Source: Conexibacter woesei Iso977N
GTDB lineage: Bacteria > Actinomycetota > Thermoleophilia > Solirubrobacterales > Solirubrobacteraceae
Direction of reading: 5' to 3'
NCBI RefSeq assembly: GCF_000424625.1
Contig: NZ_AUKG01000003.1
Location: 124,001 to 188,000, forward strand
DNA: 64,000 nucleotides
The translations under genes were made by a program, and so were the position numbers. The notes beneath the pieces were generated by a model, which was given only the letters and a program-made list of their open reading frames with translations, searched no databases and had not been told where the DNA came from. Positions 8,602 to 17,437 of this stretch are shown one piece after another. How positions within the stretch are numbered: position 1 is the stretch's first letter; the number at the start of each line of letters is the position of its first letter.

Positions 8602-8680
8602 GTGCTTCAAGGTCTCGCCACGCTGGCAGGGCGTTACAACGGCATCCGGCGGTCGTTTCCGTACACTTCCCGGACCCCTT

Positions 8681-8770
8681 GGAGAGGTGGCCGAGTGGCT
8701 GAAGGCGCTCCCCTGCTAAGGGAGTATGGGGTTTAGAGCTCCATCGAGGGTTCGAATCCCTCCCTCTCCG
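8681..8770 (+). tRNA. tRNA-Ser(GCU)
   Basis: The gene has a GGAGAGG/CCTCTCC acceptor stem, discriminator G, a long variable arm, a GTTCGAATC T-loop and an anticodon loop CTGCTAA giving GCU. CCA is not encoded. Confidence 0.96.
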
Positions 8771-8817
8771 TTCCAGTCCGCACGGTCGACACGGCCGGGC
8801 TAGACTGGTTGCTCGTT

Positions 8818-8891
<74 letters not shown>

Positions 8892-8892
8892 C

Positions 8893-9402
8893 TCAAGAAA
8901 GCCCCGCATTCGCGGGGCTTTCCTCGTTCTCGCGGACGGCGCTCGACGACCTGCCGGAGCAACGCCGGGGCTGCGTGCCAAGCCGATCGGTGACGACTGC
9001 AGCGATGCGCGCTGCTGCAACGTCAGGTTCTTCGTGTTCCCAAACCCGGACCACCTCCCATCCCGCTTGCGTCAGGATCGCGTCGGTTCGCGCGTCGCGC
9101 GCGCGGACTCCGGCGAGCTTCCGAGTCCACCACCCGGCGTTGGCCTTGGGCACACTGCCGTGCTCGGGGCAGAGGTGCCAGAAGCACCCATCGACGAAGA
9201 CGGCGACACGCGCTCGGCGAAACAGGACGTCGATGCGGTGCCGAGGGAGCTCGGGGACCTTGGCATCGACGCGATACCGCAGCCCAAGCCGGTGCAGCGC
9301 GGAACGGAGACGAAGTTCGGGGCCGGTGTCGCGCCGCCGAACCCGCTGCATCCGGATCCGGACCGCGGCTGACGACGCAGGAGGTGCAGGCTCCTGGGAC
9401 AC
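8893..9402 (-). CDS. vsr: very-short-patch mismatch repair endonuclease (Vsr)
   Basis: The 169-residue protein matches Vsr: RMQRVRRRDTGPELRLRSAL, then LPRHRIDVLFRRARVAVFVDGCFWHLCPEH with the metal-binding Asp58 and the FW pair (Phe74, Trp75) that intercalates beside the mismatch, followed by RARDARTDAILTQAGWEVVRVWEHE. Vsr nicks DNA beside the T of a T:G mismatch created when 5-methylcytosine deaminates, so it normally accompanies a C5 methyltransferase, as here. The GTG start at 9402 has an AGGG site and lies 16 bp after the endonuclease stop. The last dozen residues (ENEESPANAGLS) are encoded by the tRNA-Arg terminator hairpin, so the native C-terminus may have been altered at insertion. Confidence 0.9.
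   Translation of the reverse strand: MSQEPAPPASSAAVRIRMQRVRRRDTGPELRLRSALHRLGLRYRVDAKVPELPRHRIDVLFRRARVAVFVDGCFWHLCPEHGSVPKANAGWWTRKLAGVRARDARTDAILTQAGWEVVRVWEHEEPDVAAARIAAVVTDRLGTQPRRCSGRSSSAVRENEESPANAGLS
8898..8921 (+). terminator. terminator of tRNA-Arg, inside the vsr 3' end
   Basis: AAAGCCCCGC (8898-8907), a four-base loop and GCGGGGCTTT (8912-8921) form a perfect 10-bp hairpin followed by a pyrimidine-rich CCTCGTTCTC. It lies 7 bases after the tRNA and is read through in the opposite direction by the last codons of vsr. Confidence 0.8.
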
Positions 9403-9418
9403 GGAGCCCTGTATAGCG

Positions 9419-10372
9419 CTACTTGGCGTGCTCGTTGACGAAGTCGACCAGCCGCTGCGGATCGTGGCCCCAGAAGATGAAGTACCCCTCGTCCTGGAAG
9501 CGCGTCAGAGTCCCTAGGTCGAAGTTGCCGTCGAGCATGATGGCGATCACAACGCTCGCGGACCCGAACTTGTCACGCCAGCGTGAGGCCTTGCCTTCGA
9601 CCTCGCGCGAGACTCGCTTCCAACCGTTCTTCTGGCCGCTGTTGACCTTGCACTCGATCGTCATCAACAGACCGTCGGGGAGTCGGACGGGGACATCGCA
9701 CTTCATCCCGTGAAGAACGCATTCGCTCGTGAACGAGCCCTTGTCGAGATGATCGATCAACTCGATGTGACCGGATTTCCGCCTCAGCGGGCGCTCGACT
9801 TCCGTGAGCCCTGCGTCCGTCGCAAGCACCCGACGAACCTCAGCCTCTTGATCCTTGCTGGCGCTCCCGCGACGCTCGGTGCGGAAGCGCTCGACTGCCA
9901 GCAGCTTGGCTGTTCCATTGATCGCGGCCTTGCGCTCGTCAGGCAACGGCGAGCGGTCTTGAGAAAGCCACGGGAACAGCAGCGGATCGGCCAGCTCTCT
10001 CACCGTGCTGCACACCGCCGGCGCTGCGGCCTTCACCGCTCTCGCGTTTGCTCTGGCGGCGAACGGCCAGCGTGTGACGGTTCGGAAGTCCTCTTCGGAG
10101 ATCGGCGGTCCGGCGGTGTACCGGAGCGCCCGCACGATCTCGGGATGAGCAGCGACGACCTCAGGCCGCAGATCGGTGAGATCGGCGGTGACGGCAAGCG
10201 CCTGGACCAGCTCTTCGCGTGCGTCTGCGAGCTTCGGCCGGTAGGCCGCCGGAATGGCGTGGCGTACTCGCTCGATGAAGATGGACGTCGCTTTCGCGAT
10301 GTCCATCTTGAGCTCGTCCTCCGTGTACTTGAAGTCGCGAACGAGATCCATGGGCGCCAGTGTGACACCCAT
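9419..10372 (-). CDS. XamI-family type II restriction endonuclease
   Basis: The 317-residue protein resembles the XamI family along its length: a helical N-terminal half (KMDIAKATSIFIERVRHAIPAAYR, PEIVRALRYTAGPPISEE, LADPLLFPWLSQ) and a C-terminal nuclease core. The core has CDVPVRL (Asp226), TIECKVNSGQKNGWKR (Glu240 and Lys242, an ExK pair) and an AIMLDGNFDLGTLTRF strand region, fitting a PD-(D/E)xK active site. As I recall, the characterised family member cuts GTCGAC, but the specificity here is unproven. It follows the methyltransferase stop by 26 bp. The ATG at 10372 has GGAG five bases upstream; an in-frame ATG at 10351 is the alternative. Both ATGs lie in the two arms of a perfect inverted repeat that could block translation. 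Confidence 0.78.
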   Translation of the reverse strand: MGVTLAPMDLVRDFKYTEDELKMDIAKATSIFIERVRHAIPAAYRPKLADAREELVQALAVTADLTDLRPEVVAAHPEIVRALRYTAGPPISEEDFRTVTRWPFAARANARAVKAAAPAVCSTVRELADPLLFPWLSQDRSPLPDERKAAINGTAKLLAVERFRTERRGSASKDQEAEVRRVLATDAGLTEVERPLRRKSGHIELIDHLDKGSFTSECVLHGMKCDVPVRLPDGLLMTIECKVNSGQKNGWKRVSREVEGKASRWRDKFGSASVVIAIMLDGNFDLGTLTRFQDEGYFIFWGHDPQRLVDFVNEHAK

Positions 10373-10379
10373 GGATCTC
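10343..10379 (-). promoter_or_regulatory. inverted repeat covering the endonuclease ribosome-binding site and start
   Basis: GAGATCCATGGG (10343-10354) and CCCATGGATCTC (10368-10379) are perfect 12-bp reverse complements with a 13-base spacer. In the minus-strand mRNA the first arm contains part of the GGAG site and the ATG at 10372, and the second contains the in-frame ATG at 10351. A folded stem would hide both starts. Confidence 0.7.
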
Positions 10380-10390
10380 CGTCAACGGAG
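10377..10390. promoter_or_regulatory. palindromic element before the endonuclease gene (copy 1)
   Basis: CTCCGTCAACGGAG has arms CTCCGT and ACGGAG. Thirteen of its bases, TCCGTCAACGGAG, recur exactly at 11654-11666 before the methyltransferase gene. It overlaps the endonuclease ribosome-binding site and the adjacent inverted repeat, so one site could control both. Confidence 0.6.
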
Positions 10391-10398
10391 ACTGCGGC

Positions 10399-11613
10399 TC
10401 AGACCAGCTGCTCGACGCGCTTCGCCCGGCGGCGCAACGTGCCGTTCACGCGGTGCTCCGCGGTCGTGTAACGGATCCGCCTTCGGAAGTTCGCCGGCCA
10501 AGGAGTCGAGGTCGGGCGCTCTCCTCGTTTGAGCGAACCCTCTGCCAGGCTTGCGCGAGCTTCGCGGCCGAGTGCGTGTGCCAGTTCGAACGGAACGGCG
10601 TTGCCGATCTGCCGGAAGCGGCTCGTCAGCGAACCGCTGAAGGCCCAACCGTCTGGGAAGCCCTGGAGGCGTGCACACTCCTGCCAGGTGAGACGTCTGT
10701 GCGTGCCGTCGTCCATCTTGAGCCAGTCTGGGGTCGACGCGGCGCGGATCGTGCGCGATGGTTGATCCCAGGCGGCGATGAAGCCGTCCTGTCGGTAGCC
10801 CCACTGTCCGCTCGGCCGGTTGTTCATCACCTGCCCTCCGACTCGGATACCGCTCCCCGCCTGGACCTCGGCGAGTTTCTCCTGCATCTGCGAGGAGGCC
10901 CAGACCGCATCCCCTTCGCTTTCTGGCAGACCTGCCAGTGCGTCTTTGATGGGTACCCACGGCATCAGCAGGCTGCCCACGTCGAGCGGGTTCTTCGTGT
11001 GCGTTGCAGCGGGCGGCATCGAGGGCAGTCGATGACGCCGTGTCCCAAGCATCACCAGCCGAACTCGCTTCTGAGGGGCGCCGTAGTCGGCCGCGTTCGC
11101 AAGCGCGAAGCTGCACGCGTAACCGGCACTCTCGAACTCGTCTTGAACCAAACGGAGCACGCCGCCGATCTGTCCGTCGGAGTCACGTGCTGTGACAAGA
11201 CCTTGAACGTTCTCGAATAGCACGAAGGCCGGCTTCAAGGCCCGCGCGGTTCGCACGAAGTCGCGGAAGAGCAGACCTCTGGCGTCTGCGATGCCCTGTT
11301 GCTTGCCAGCGCTGCTGAAGCTCTGGCACGGAGGCCCTCCGGCGAGCAGGGAAGGCGCCTTGTCCGAGCCCCAGAGAGTCTTCAGGTCGCCCTTGGTGAG
11401 CTTCGTCAGGTCTGCTCGAGCGATCGTCGCGCCCTCGAGGTAGTGCCGATCCGACCGCTCAATCGGGACTCGTGCTGCTTGCGTCGCCTTGAGGGTCGCG
11501 ACAGCGTCGACGTCGTTGTCGATCGCAAGTCTCGTTTCGAACCCGGCCCGCTCGAGGCCGGCGTCCAAGCCGCCCGCTCCTGCGAAGAGGCTCACCAAAG
11601 TCAACTGCTCCAT
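10399..11613 (-). CDS. DNA (cytosine-5)-methyltransferase
   Basis: The 404-residue enzyme has the C5-MTase motifs in the usual order: motif I SLFAGAGGLDAGL (AdoMet site, residues 8-20), motif IV AGGPPCQSFS with catalytic Cys96, motif VI FENVQG (Glu134), motif VIII QKRVR (181-185), a target-recognition region around 200-310 and the closing LTWQECARLQGFP and FRQIGNAVP (motifs IX-X). An unusual basic tail of about 40 residues follows motif X. It should protect host DNA from the adjacent XamI-family nuclease; Vsr downstream fits with 5-methylcytosine as the product. The start at 11613 has an AAGGGAAGGG site. A longer frame to 11688 would run through the palindromic leader and is less likely. Confidence 0.93.
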   Translation of the reverse strand: MEQLTLVSLFAGAGGLDAGLERAGFETRLAIDNDVDAVATLKATQAARVPIERSDRHYLEGATIARADLTKLTKGDLKTLWGSDKAPSLLAGGPPCQSFSSAGKQQGIADARGLLFRDFVRTARALKPAFVLFENVQGLVTARDSDGQIGGVLRLVQDEFESAGYACSFALANAADYGAPQKRVRLVMLGTRRHRLPSMPPAATHTKNPLDVGSLLMPWVPIKDALAGLPESEGDAVWASSQMQEKLAEVQAGSGIRVGGQVMNNRPSGQWGYRQDGFIAAWDQPSRTIRAASTPDWLKMDDGTHRRLTWQECARLQGFPDGWAFSGSLTSRFRQIGNAVPFELAHALGREARASLAEGSLKRGERPTSTPWPANFRRRIRYTTAEHRVNGTLRRRAKRVEQLV

Positions 11614-11652
11614 CGAGACGCACCCTTCCCTTGGCTCCGGCAGAACGGCAAC

Positions 11653-11666
11653 GTCCGTCAACGGAG
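11653..11666. promoter_or_regulatory. palindromic element before the methyltransferase gene (copy 2)
   Basis: GTCCGTCAACGGAG shares 13 consecutive bases with the element at 10377-10390. It lies 40 bases upstream of the methyltransferase ATG, in the probable 5' leader, and could be an operator for a common regulator such as the methyltransferase itself. Confidence 0.6.
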
Positions 11667-11691
11667 CTGAAGTGGTTCTGAAAGACAAATA

Positions 11692-11705
11692 CGAACATAT
11701 GTTCG
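11692..11705. promoter_or_regulatory. SOS/LexA-type box upstream of the restriction-modification genes
   Basis: CGAACATATGTTCG is a perfect 14-bp palindrome and fits the Gram-positive LexA box CGAAC-N4-GTTCG. On the minus strand it contains TATGTT, a plausible -10 element, and lies 79 bases before the methyltransferase start. LexA bound here should repress the operon; the divergent gene starts at 11897, about 190 bp away. Confidence 0.7.
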
Positions 11706-11896
11706 ATCATGTGAGTGAGGCTAAACGGCGTGTCGGACATGTAGAGCCAGGGGAGCGGGCGCGGCCCTGGCGTGGGCTCGGTCGGCGCGATCATCGGTTC
11801 ACCTCTCTGCTTCTGAGTAGGGCATGCGTCCACGGCCCTCACCGGTCGGACAGTCCTGTTCCACTTCGCTGAAGGAACCCTTACGCTCTTCGGCCG

Positions 11897-14176
11897 ATGA
11901 AGCACGGACGCTCGCTCCCCACGCTCCTGGCTGCCCTCGTCCTGATGGCGCTGACCCTCGCGCTCGCCCAGCCGCAGCGTGCCAGCGCTGCTGGGAGCAT
12001 CGGCGTCAGCATGAACAGCGGCGACCCGACCGAGGGTGGGGCGGTGTCGATCACGGTCTCGGGCAGCGCGGACTCCGGGACCGACTGGTGGGCGGTGGGG
12101 ACGCAGGCGGGCTTCTGCGCCGCGACGGTCGACGGCAACGCCGGCGGCTACGACTTCACCTACGCGCACTACGTGTCGGGCGCGTTCAGCGACAGCACGC
12201 AGTTCACCCCGCCAAACGCGGGCACGTGGACGATCTGCGTCTACCTCGCGAACTCGACGACCGCGGCGCCGAGCGCCGTCGGGCAGACGACGTTCACCGT
12301 GCGCAGGGCGACGGCGACCGTGAACGTCGCGATCAGCGCCGACCCGACGGTCGACCAGTGGTCGACGATCACGATGTCCGGCACCAGCGAGGCGACGCGC
12401 AAGCTCCGCGCGTGGATCACGCCGAGTTCATGCGCGGCCACCTACGCCGGCAACACCGACGGCCAGACCCTGACCTACGGCGCGACGACCGTCGGCCCCG
12501 GCGCCTACAGGACGTCCTACAACTTCCAGACCGGCGCCGCCAACAGCTACACGGTCTGCGCCTACGTCTCCGACCGCGTGAACGACCCGCCCAACGGCTC
12601 CGCGGCCCTGGCCTTCACCGTGCGCGGCCCGCACGAGACGATGGCGATCGGCATCGGCGCCGACCCGCACGAGGACGCCTCCCTCCCGGTCACGATCTCC
12701 GGAGCCGCCGAGCTCGACCGCACGCTCTACGCGGCGCAGATCGCCGGCGGCCCCTGCCCCGCGCACTACAGCGTCACGGCGGCGGACTCGTCCCTGGACT
12801 ACAGCGGCCGCTCGATCAAGGCGGGGAACTACTCCGAGTCCTACACCTACACGCCGCCGGCCGCCGGCCACTACCGGATCTGCGCGTGGCTGGGCAAGAG
12901 CACGAGCTCAGCCGAGCTGGCGACCAGCGTGGAGTTCGACGCCCGCCGCAGCGCCACGGCGTTGTCCATCAACATGGACGGCTCGCCGTACCTGCTCGGC
13001 GCCGGCAGGCGCACCGCGACGATCACCGGCTTCACCGAGGCCTCCGACTACGTCTCGATGGAGTCCCTCGCCGGGACGACGTGCCCGCCGCCGGAGTTCG
13101 GGGTCGACGGCTTCGGCGTCGGCGGCCCGTTCTCGCGCACGATCGCCGTCGACCCGGAGCGCTCCCCGAACTACGTCGTCTGCGCCTACCTCTTCCACGA
13201 CAGGGACGTCTACGCCACCGCCCGCGCGCCGATCAGCGAGCTGGCGGTCCCGGTCCCGGCGATCGGCGAGAACACGCCGAAGGGCATGATCGGCGAGCGC
13301 CGCCCGTCGTTCGCGTGGTCGGCCGGCGCCGGGTTCAGCGACGACCTCGTGCTCTCCGACCGCGACGGGGCGACGCTGTTCGTCGTCGGCAGCGACGGCG
13401 CGTGGGTCCCCACGGACGACGGGACGCCGAGCACCGGCGGCCAGCAGCTCAAGACCCCGGCGGCCGCTTCCCGCAAGGGCTACGAGCGCCTGCCCGGCGC
13501 CGCGACCTACAGGACCGCCGCCGGCAGGACCACGGTCAGGGTCACGCAGCCGCTGCCGCCCGGCGGCTACCGCTGGTCGGTGCAGCGCAGGCGCTCCGAC
13601 GGCGAGACGGCCAGGACGGCGCCGATCGCCTTCAAGATCGCCGGCCCGGACGTCAAGAGGCTCGCGGTCCGGGCGAAGTCGTTCCCGGTCGCCAACAGCA
13701 GGCACCCGGGCCACAGCGAGCTGCGGATCACCACCACGCCGTGGGCCTACGTCCGGATCCAGCTCACGCGCGGCGGCCGCAAGCAGGTCCAGAACCTGCG
13801 CTGGGACGGCTCGGCCAGCCACGCGCTGAGCTTCACCTGGACCTGCAGGGCCGGCGGCGGCGCCTACCGCTACGTCGTCACCGCAAGCGACGACGATGAC
13901 CACAGCTTCACGCGCCACGGCACGATCAGGACGATCTCCCGCGCCCGCTGCGCGTCGCTGCGCGCGGCCGAGCGGCGCAAGGTCGACCGCCGCGTCGCGC
14001 AGCGCCGCGAGCGCCAGGCCGCCGCCGAGCGCCGCCGCGAGGCCGCCGCCCGCGCCAGGGCCCAGCGGCTGGTCGACCAGTGCCACTCGATCGGCGGCGT
14101 GGTCCGCAACTGGGAGTGGTCGGATGGCACGACGTGGCTGCTCTGCGTCACCCCGTCGGGCGCGTTCCCCATGTAG
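11897..14176 (+). CDS. secreted protein with tandem Ig-like repeats and basic C-terminal tail
   Basis: The 759-residue protein starts with a signal peptide (about residues 1-32, ending RASAAG). Four consecutive units of about 110 residues follow, each with a beta-sandwich outline and a late Cys in a conserved strand: YTPPAAGHYRICAWLG, FTPPNAGTWTICVYLA, NSYTVCAYVS, NYVVCAYLF. They are paired with an earlier Cys (AGFCAATVDG, SSCAATYAGN, GGPCPAHYS). Residues 440-600 include the GENTPKGMIGERRPSFAWS region of a different beta domain. The end has a highly charged Arg/Ala helix (RRVAQRRERQAAAERRREAA) before WSDGTTWLLCVTP. TACGCT at 11882-11887 precedes the ATG by 9 bases. It is a surface or wall-associated protein of unknown role. 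Confidence 0.8.
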   Translation: MKHGRSLPTLLAALVLMALTLALAQPQRASAAGSIGVSMNSGDPTEGGAVSITVSGSADSGTDWWAVGTQAGFCAATVDGNAGGYDFTYAHYVSGAFSDSTQFTPPNAGTWTICVYLANSTTAAPSAVGQTTFTVRRATATVNVAISADPTVDQWSTITMSGTSEATRKLRAWITPSSCAATYAGNTDGQTLTYGATTVGPGAYRTSYNFQTGAANSYTVCAYVSDRVNDPPNGSAALAFTVRGPHETMAIGIGADPHEDASLPVTISGAAELDRTLYAAQIAGGPCPAHYSVTAADSSLDYSGRSIKAGNYSESYTYTPPAAGHYRICAWLGKSTSSAELATSVEFDARRSATALSINMDGSPYLLGAGRRTATITGFTEASDYVSMESLAGTTCPPPEFGVDGFGVGGPFSRTIAVDPERSPNYVVCAYLFHDRDVYATARAPISELAVPVPAIGENTPKGMIGERRPSFAWSAGAGFSDDLVLSDRDGATLFVVGSDGAWVPTDDGTPSTGGQQLKTPAAASRKGYERLPGAATYRTAAGRTTVRVTQPLPPGGYRWSVQRRRSDGETARTAPIAFKIAGPDVKRLAVRAKSFPVANSRHPGHSELRITTTPWAYVRIQLTRGGRKQVQNLRWDGSASHALSFTWTCRAGGGAYRYVVTASDDDDHSFTRHGTIRTISRARCASLRAAERRKVDRRVAQRRERQAAAERRREAAARARAQRLVDQCHSIGGVVRNWEWSDGTTWLLCVTPSGAFPM

Positions 14177-14242
14177 CAGACCGACATGTAGGACGTATCG
14201 CTCAACGGCGACTTCACGCCGAAGTGATAAGAACGCATCCTC

Positions 14243-15157
14243 ATGAAGAAGCATCTGCGGTTCGCCGCCATCCTCTCGACCACGGCGATCGCCGCCTCCG
14301 GTCTCGCCGCCTGCGGGTCCAACGACGACAGCAGCACGTCGTCGTCCACGCCCGCGGCCGCGTCCACGACCGCGTCGACGACGCCGTCCACCAGCATCGC
14401 CGTCCCGGACAAGATCAAGTCCAAGGGCACGCTCACCGTCGCCGCCGACGCGTCTTATGCGCCGAACGAGTTCTTCGGCAGCGACGGCAGGACCGTCCAG
14501 GGCATGGACGCCGATCTTGCTCAGGCGATCGGCAGGGAGCTCGGCCTCAGGGTCAGGGTCCAGAACGCCGGCTTCGACGGGATCATCCCGGGCCTTGCTG
14601 CCGGCAAGTTCGACCTCGGCATGTCGTCCTTCACGGACACCAAGGAGCGCGAGAGGACCGTCGACTTCGTCACGTACTTCTCGGCCGGCACGTCCTTCTA
14701 CACGAAGGCCTCCGGTGGCACCGACGTCACCGGCCTCGCCGACCTCTGCGGCAAGACCGTCGCGGTCGAGAAGGGCACGACCCAGGGCGACGACGCCACC
14801 GCCCAGGGCAGGAAGTGCAAGTCCGCCGGCAAGGGCGACGTCAAGGTCTCGACGTTCCCGGACCAGAACGGCGCCAACCTGGCGATCTCCTCGGGCCGCG
14901 CGCAGCTCGGCATGGCCGACTCGCCGGTCGCCGACTACCAGGTCAAGCAGTCCAACGGCCAGTTCAAGACCGTCGGCACGCCCTACGGCACCGCGCCCTA
15001 CGGCATCGCGATCCCGAAGAACTCGGGCCTCGCCGATCCCGTCCTGAAGGCCGTCAAGGAGCTGATCTCCAACGGCCAGTACAAGCAGATCCTCACGAGG
15101 TGGGGCATCGCGGACGGCGCGATCACCGACCCCGTGATCAACGGGGCGACCTCGTAG
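14243..15157 (+). CDS. amino-acid ABC transporter substrate-binding lipoprotein
   Basis: The 304-residue protein has a lipoprotein signal peptide (ASGLAACG, Cys about residue 24), a Ser/Thr-rich linker and a family 3 solute-binding domain. Diagnostic segments are GTLTVAADASYAPNEFF, VQGMDADLAQAIGRELGL, FDGIIPGLAAGKFDLGMSSF, TKERERTVDFVTYFSAG and the lobe II KTVAVEKGTTQ. It should capture a polar or basic amino acid outside the membrane for the permease and ATPase encoded immediately downstream. No ribosome-binding site is evident before the ATG. Confidence 0.93.
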   Translation: MKKHLRFAAILSTTAIAASGLAACGSNDDSSTSSSTPAAASTTASTTPSTSIAVPDKIKSKGTLTVAADASYAPNEFFGSDGRTVQGMDADLAQAIGRELGLRVRVQNAGFDGIIPGLAAGKFDLGMSSFTDTKERERTVDFVTYFSAGTSFYTKASGGTDVTGLADLCGKTVAVEKGTTQGDDATAQGRKCKSAGKGDVKVSTFPDQNGANLAISSGRAQLGMADSPVADYQVKQSNGQFKTVGTPYGTAPYGIAIPKNSGLADPVLKAVKELISNGQYKQILTRWGIADGAITDPVINGATS

Positions 15158-15164
15158 CCGCCTG

Positions 15165-16099
15165 ATGTCCACGACGCAGCAGCCGGCCGGCTCCCCGGAG
15201 CCGGCCGGCGGCGTCACCCCCGGCGCCATCGAGGCGGTCCCGGTCCGGCACCCCGGCCGCTGGGTCGCCGCGCTCGTCGTCGCGGTGATCGCCTTCCTCC
15301 TCGCCAGGTCCGTCATCACCAACCCCCGCTTCGAGTGGGACGTCGTCGGCGACTACCTCTTCGACGCCCGCGTGCTGCGCGGCATCGTCACGACGCTCGA
15401 GCTGACCGTCATCGCGATGGTCATCGGCATCCTCGGCGGGGTGCTGCTGGCGGTCATGCGCCTGTCCCCGAACCCGATGGTGTCGGGCTCGAGCTTCTTC
15501 TACATCTGGATCTTCCGCGGCACGCCGGTCCTGGTCCAGCTGCTGTTCTGGAACTTCATCGCCGCCGTCTACCCGCAGATCACGTTCGGCCTGCCGTTCG
15601 TGCACCTCGACGCCAACGACCTGATCAAGCCGTTCACCGCGGCGATCCTCGGGCTCGGCCTCAACGAGGCGGCCTACATGTCGGAGATCGTGCGCGCCGG
15701 GATCCTCTCGGTCGACGAGGGCCAGGCCGAGGCCGCGCAGGCGCTCGGCATGACGCGCACCCAGACGATGCGCCGGATCGTGCTCCCGCAGGCGATGCGC
15801 GTGATCGTCCCGCCGACCGGCAACGAGATCATCTCGATGCTGAAGACGACGTCGCTGGCGTCGGCGATCGCGGTCACCGAGCTGCTCTACGCCGTCCAGC
15901 TGATCTACGCGCAGAACTACAAGACGATCCCGCTGCTGATCGTCGCGAGCTTCTGGTACCTGCTGGGCACCACGATCCTCTCGATCGGCCAGTACTTCCT
16001 GGAGAGGCGCTTCGGCCGCGGCCGCTCGCGCGCCGAGCAGCTGGGAGTGCGTGCGAGGTTCATGGCGCTCGCGAACCGCGGCGGCGAGCCGCGAGGGGT

Positions 16100-16103
<4 letters not shown>
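15165..16103 (+). CDS. amino-acid ABC transporter permease
   Basis: The 312-residue protein has a polar 28-residue N-terminus, about five to six membrane segments and the HisMQ-type coupling loop [30 protein letters not shown], where the EAA-like motif contacts the ATPase. The segment [18 protein letters not shown] is typical of polar amino-acid permeases. It begins 8 bp after the binding-protein stop and its TGA overlaps the ATPase ATG (ATGA), so the three genes form one operon. Confidence 0.93.
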
Positions 16104-16885
<782 letters not shown>

Positions 16886-16888
16886 CCG

Positions 16889-17437
16889 CTAGGCCGGAAG
16901 CAGCGGACGCAGGGCGTCGAGGCCCCGGACCCAGAGGGCCTCGACGTCGGTGTTCGGCGGGAAGCGGTCGATCAGCTCGAGGTTGACCATCCCGTGTGCG
17001 AAGGCCCAGATGCAGCGCGCGGTGACGAGGTCGCCGCCGCACAGCTCGCGCAGCGGCGTGCCCGCGTACAGCTCGGCCTCGGCGACCGCCGGGTCGCTGC
17101 GGTCCAGGTCGCGGGCGTAGATCAGGTTGTACAGGTGGGTGTGCTCGTGGGCCCAGCGGCTCCACGCCATCGCGATCGTGGTCAGCGGATCGGCCTGGCC
17201 CTCCGGCGTCGCGACCGCCTCGCGCAGGGCCATGCCCTGCTCCTGCAGGCCGGCCGCGATGATCGCGCTCTCCAGCGCACGCTTGTCGGCGACGTGCTCG
17301 TAGAGCGACGGCGCGCGGATGCCGATCTCGGCCGCGACGTTGCGCATCGAGAGCGCCTCGGGCCCGTCGGCTTCGAGCAGTCGACGGGCCGCGGTGACGA
17401 TCTGCGCACGGCGGCTGGTGGGCGCGGTGGCGGTCAT
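16889..17437 (-). CDS. TetR-family regulator with WHG-type C-terminal domain
   Basis: The 182-residue protein has an N-terminal TetR helix-turn-helix (RRAQIVTAARRLLEADGPEALSMRNVAAEIGIRAPSLYEHVADKRAL) and a C-terminal domain with the RWAHEHTHLYNLIYAR and ARCIWAFAHGMVNLELIDRF pattern of the WHG subgroup. It lies downstream of an ABC-2 exporter pair on the same strand, with an inverted repeat just before it. It probably represses itself and possibly the exporter. Confidence 0.88.
   Translation of the reverse strand: MTATAPTSRRAQIVTAARRLLEADGPEALSMRNVAAEIGIRAPSLYEHVADKRALESAIIAAGLQEQGMALREAVATPEGQADPLTTIAMAWSRWAHEHTHLYNLIYARDLDRSDPAVAEAELYAGTPLRELCGGDLVTARCIWAFAHGMVNLELIDRFPPNTDVEALWVRGLDALRPLLPA

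Follow-up and report, generated by a model that had tools for sequence, protein, structure and literature searches.

A XamI-family restriction operon with a C5 methyltransferase, Vsr and a predicted LexA box in Conexibacter woesei

Next to a tRNA-Arg gene of Conexibacter woesei Iso977N, three minus-strand genes encode a cytosine-5 (C5) methyltransferase, a XamI-like nuclease and a Vsr endonuclease. What kind of restriction-modification (R-M) system is this, how did it come to lie here, and what controls it? The window, i.e., the whole stretch of DNA that was analysed, comprises 64,000 nucleotides (contig NZ_AUKG01000003.1, positions 124,001 to 188,000), and positions are those of the window. 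The trio consists of the following genes.

8893 to 9402, minus strand: vsr, very-short-patch repair endonuclease (TIGR00632, PF03852, alignment)
9419 to 10372, minus strand: XamI-family (PF09572) PD-(D/E)XK restriction endonuclease of a C5-partnered clade (Pfam, tree, alignment, AlphaFold)
10399 to 11613, minus strand: DNA (cytosine-5) methyltransferase (PF00145, alignment)

The ORFs agreed with the order and spacing given in an earlier note on this DNA, i.e., 26 bp between methyltransferase and nuclease and 16 bp between nuclease and vsr. Families were assigned by Pfam and NCBIfam profiles, with matches above the curated cut-offs. The nuclease, for which that note had proposed an HMM search, matched RE_XamI (PF09572) with 70.2 bits (cut-off 25). 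The methyltransferase matched DNA_methylase (PF00145) with 205 bits (cut-off 22), and Vsr matched PF03852 with 61 bits (cut-off 27) and TIGR00632 with 111 bits (curated cut-off 97.85). In the alignments, the methyltransferase motifs GGPPCQ, ENV, QxRxR and GNA were all intact and in order, its C-terminal tail was conserved and common to the C5 clade, and the Vsr C-terminus was approximately 25 residues longer than in its relatives. The restriction and methyltransferase genes are adjacent and each is intact, as in a type II R-M system, and with vsr they make up a genuine linked unit. The two enzymes presumably share one target sequence, and the three genes are probably transcribed together.

The tRNA side of the locus contains two further features.

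8818 to 8892, plus strand: tRNA-Arg(ACG), anchor of the variable region (ARAGORN)
About 8898 to 8922: terminator hairpin of tRNA-Arg (alignment with the nearest relative, G001)

The trio had been placed two bases from the 3' end of tRNA-Arg; in fact, the vsr stop codon (8893-8895) directly abuts the tRNA end at 8892. The final nine Vsr codons fall within the terminator region. G001 shares msrA, tRNA-Ser, tRNA-Arg and its terminator as far as position 8922, which puts the evolutionary junction near 8922 rather than directly at the end of the tRNA. Similarity to G001 ends at approximately 8922 and returns at approximately 16896; G001 has about 16 kb of other DNA between these points, and the whole stretch of the window between them is variable. 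No repeat of the tRNA-Arg end (att) was found in 8640-17200 or in the first 30 kb. Because other DNA occupies the locus in the relatives, the exact empty site that was sought there was not demonstrated. The locus is thus a tRNA-anchored variable region that shows no sign of site-specific integration at a tRNA. The island label given earlier is supported in part, i.e., for a linked unit whose nuclease and methyltransferase are absent from relatives, and is not supported for a classic tRNA-insertion island.

Absence of the trio from relatives had been expected if it was gained. Among seven same-genus genomes, the nuclease and this methyltransferase were found only in the window's own genome and were lacking in all six others; a Vsr homologue with 50% identity was placed elsewhere in one same-genus genome. 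The G+C content of the trio, i.e., approximately 0.62-0.68, is below the approximately 0.70-0.80 of most flanking DNA, which fits recent gain. A search of phage records gave no match.

Two side observations were made in these genomes. In G002 (C1), tRNA-Ser (about 1324680) and tRNA-Arg (about 1441370), which are adjacent in the window and in G001, are approximately 120 kb apart. The G002 tRNA-Arg is near the other flank of the locus in opposite orientation, and the split suggests rearrangement at a hot spot. In the window's own genome, G000:C1:1180991-1187287 encodes a second C5 methyltransferase with 34% identity to the window's enzyme and, approximately 5 kb from it, a Vsr homologue apparently split in two frames.

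The pairing of a XamI-family nuclease with a C5 enzyme had been called unusual. It is unusual, but not unique, since the C5 partner marks a clade in approximately 12 lineages. Every plasmid-borne XamI relative with an assignable partner had an N6-adenine methyltransferase. For actinobacterial PF09572 members, most assignable neighbours were N6-adenine methyltransferases, approximately 535 aa long and with the NPPY motif. The C5 partner of the window nuclease departs from this usual neighbour, which is not part of the Pfam definition. Searching genome contigs with the single XamI protein gave no match. The second group was found by a scan with a two-row alignment of the window nuclease and a Euzebyaceae fragment adjoining vsr, and additional members were taken from genome searches. 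This C5 group includes Mycobacterium, Mycolicibacterium, Micromonospora, Phytohabitans, Lentzea, Methylopila and metagenome-assembled genomes (MAGs) of Gaiella, Sphingomonas and Rhodospirillales, and spans Actinomycetota and Alphaproteobacteria. Its methyltransferase is directly upstream of the nuclease and scored approximately 340-410 bits to the window's enzyme, and Vsr adjoins the pair in most of the actinobacterial loci.

In a tree of 29 nucleases, from which distant PF09572 members poorly aligned in a first tree were left out, the C5-partnered and solitary nucleases were set apart from the N6-partnered set with support of 100/100, and the window nuclease was on the C5 side. XamI and the N6-partnered systems resemble the window in nuclease family, in the D...ECK motif and in the restriction gene placed beside a methyltransferase. 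They differ in the N6-adenine (NPPY) partner, where the window has a C5-cytosine partner and Vsr, and in the signature beside the catalytic lysine, i.e., ECKVSNSSTNSVKR in the N6 group and ECKVSNGPKNGWKR in the C5 group.

Few genomes carry the system, i.e., 3 of 98 in one genus sample. Solitary C5-clade nucleases with no methyltransferase beside them were found in Alphaproteobacteria (L061:1575-2444 and L063:5926-6753). A 6 kb viral contig (L066, IMGVR_UViG_3300047160_019492) carried the end of a C5 methyltransferase gene, a XamI-like nuclease and a convergent Vsr at 1-2109, which suggests phages or prophages as possible carriers of the system. In a Euzebyaceae MAG (L065, the same as L037; 2229-3021), the nuclease is decayed to a C-terminal fragment whose frame breaks close to its end, and an intact vsr comes next. 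Separately, an unannotated XamI-like fragment was noticed at the end of a Rhodococcus aetherivorans plasmid record (NZ_CP130486.1, 7058-7594).

The control of the operon was considered from the DNA in front of the methyltransferase, where one more feature was recognized.

11692 to 11705, no strand assigned: perfect 14-bp palindrome CGAACATATGTTCG, predicted LexA (SOS) operator (motif match, comparison)

This palindrome is 78 bp upstream of the methyltransferase ATG. The earlier picture of the operon stands in its genes and lacked this box at the head. In the window's own genome of 5.7 Mb, nine sites had at most one mismatch to the box and two were exact, the window's included; a reversed control pattern gave no site in the same 5.7 Mb. 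The other copies were found at the starts of lexA, imuB-like, dnaE2-like (PHP and pol III alpha domains), dinB, dprA-like and exonuclease-like genes, and two more had no assigned gene. From its place at the lexA, imuB-like, dnaE2-like and dinB starts, the motif can be recognized as the Conexibacter woesei LexA box. The window's box is therefore an exact match to the host motif near an operon start, as in operators of the LexA regulon. As an observation apart from the operon, the only other exact copy (G000:C1:291829-291842) is at the start of the dprA-like gene (DNA_processg_A), which hints that DNA uptake may be under SOS control.

Boxes were also found in other members of the C5 group. In five Mycobacterium/Mycolicibacterium loci, TCGAACNNNNGTTCGA was present in the matching region, four times exact and once degenerate. 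Upstream of the methyltransferase, TCGAACGGCCGTTCGA was perfect in four of the five closely related Mycobacterium loci and degenerate in the fifth, and in each of the four it was the sole GAACN4GTTC of the locus. We take TCGAACGGCCGTTCGA to be the mycobacterial LexA consensus. In Methylopila, GTTCN7GTTC occurs just once in the locus, 13 bp upstream of the methyltransferase start, and the Mycobacterium and Methylopila boxes together are 13-20 bp from that start. GTTC(N7)GTTC is the alphaproteobacterial form of the LexA box, as described in Caulobacter (PMC12907096). Vsr is convergent in the Mycobacterium loci, and is therefore outside the boxed transcription unit there.

None of 15 N6-type controls had an exact LexA box. 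Leaving out the discovery case, the chance of two further boxed lineages was roughly P ~5e-4 by background rates in the same taxa, with lineages counted by hand and the motif first noticed in the window. An estimate for the window only (~2e-4) is post hoc, because the box was first spotted by eye. Taking the host-matching box, the boxes of the compared loci and the N6 controls without a box together, the operon of the window is probably under LexA control. The literature searched, which was mostly non-subscription, contained no description of a type II R-M operon under LexA control, and this counts as weak evidence.

The exact box was absent from 9 of the 12 C5-type lineages. With the box in just three of them, SOS control does not extend to the C5 clade at large, and the same count speaks for an ordinary type II system that is constitutive or self-regulated and has no SOS role. 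The CGAAC-N4-GTTCG palindrome would then have arisen by chance, or be an operator of the methyltransferase or of another repressor; C5 methyltransferases can autoregulate via operator sites. This explanation is rather unlikely, as the window's box matches the lexA/imuB/dnaE2/dinB motif of its own genome, and the Methylopila site is an alphaproteobacterial direct repeat, which is not expected of an operator shared by descent.

In the nuclease, the predicted catalytic residues D226, E240 and K242 were invariant in the alignment, the open frame is full length, and the AlphaFold model reached a pLDDT of 85, i.e., a confident predicted fold. By VIA-align, this model matched BsoBI (1dc1) over most of its length (Z 13.8, rmsd 4.2, 263 residues). 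The overall fold is alike, which on the AlphaFold model places the nuclease in the BsoBI fold group, with 12% sequence identity and different partner enzymes. Foldseek alone returned nothing below E 0.001 with the model, and no solved structure related to the nuclease came up in a search by sequence. Within the C5 clade, the window nuclease has diverged most, and its long branch in the tree means that activity or target may have drifted. It reads ECKVNSGQKN where the clade has the near-invariant ECKVSNGPKN. Together with the Euzebyaceae relative, which retains a mere nuclease fragment beside vsr, this would fit an inactive or decaying nuclease and a methyltransferase and Vsr that serve alone as an epigenetic or repair pair. 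The full-length frame, the intact D/ExK residues and the confident fold argue against such decay, which we regard as improbable. Least probable of all is that the box, which lies between both genes, serves the divergent gene at 11897 (a 759-aa predicted secreted protein), as it is 191 bp from that start and nearer to the methyltransferase, and the Mycobacterium and Methylopila boxes are close to methyltransferase starts.

For the target, GTCGAC is a plausible leading guess. BsoBI cuts C^YCGRG, and its YCGR core is common with the XamI site GTCGAC. In Herpetosiphon, the m5C methyltransferase M.HgiDII acts on GTCGAC (PMC5867850). The guess follows from the XamI site and from M.HgiDII, which shows that m5C methylation of GTCGAC exists. 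If the window nuclease keeps the XamI specificity, the operon would resemble HgiDII in having a C5 enzyme that protects the XamI/SalI site. Site avoidance was calculated for 864 kb of the host and 400 kb of each of two relatives. GTCGAC showed no specific depletion (observed/expected ratios of 0.84 for the host, 0.88 and 0.98 for the relatives), and it was not depleted in the Mycobacterium carriers. CTCGAG was the most depleted palindrome in the host (0.59 versus 0.75 and 0.92). This was dropped as evidence on the target, as CTCGGG was not similarly depleted and the Mycobacterium carriers trend the opposite way. Site avoidance favoured no single candidate, neither GTCGAC nor the different target suggested earlier.

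We consider it likely that the window encodes a complete type II R-M operon in the order methyltransferase, nuclease, Vsr, most likely belonging to the LexA regulon. In such an operon, the C5 methyltransferase would mark a cytosine in the target site, and the XamI/BsoBI-like PD-(D/E)XK nuclease would cut unmarked sites and so defend the cell against incoming DNA. Vsr would repair the T:G mismatches that arise from 5-methylcytosine deamination. In unstressed cells, LexA bound to the box 78 bp before the methyltransferase would keep the operon low. DNA damage, including that by the system's own nucleases, would lead to LexA cleavage, and methyltransferase, nuclease and Vsr would rise together. 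More broadly, and with slightly better than even confidence, the C5/XamI/Vsr operon may have been put under host LexA repeatedly in unrelated bacteria, each time by a box in the host's own form. Restriction, methylation and, where co-transcribed, mismatch repair would then be raised by damage.

A link of m5C, Vsr and SOS has independent support from Caulobacter. There, loss of a C5 methyltransferase leads to a Vsr-dependent SOS response, and vsrA is SOS-induced with a GTTC(N7)GTTC box (PMC12907096). The Caulobacter ScmA/VsrA pair thus resembles the window in joining an m5C methyltransferase, a Vsr-like nuclease with a LexA box on its gene, and SOS. It differs in working without a restriction enzyme and in its solitary methyltransferase, which is not linked to vsrA (PMC12907096). 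Dcm-Vsr and R-M systems with V. genes likewise link a Vsr to a C5 methyltransferase, whose deamination product it repairs; the window operon differs from them in the predicted LexA control of the whole unit.

What appears new here, as judged from sequence, is the predicted LexA box before the operon, the C5 pairing itself being common to a clade. The XamI family falls into two branches that differ in the chemistry of their methyltransferases, a distinction that is important when modified bases are predicted from genome annotation. If the SOS reading is true, the SOS response would govern a whole type II restriction operon, and separate lineages would each have gained the operator in host-specific form. 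A feedback is possible, whereby the system, by breaking DNA, increases the output of its own protective methyltransferase. Alternatively, an SOS response set off by phages or by single-stranded DNA entering the cell may serve to arm restriction. If confirmed at the bench, the operon would tie DNA restriction to DNA damage.
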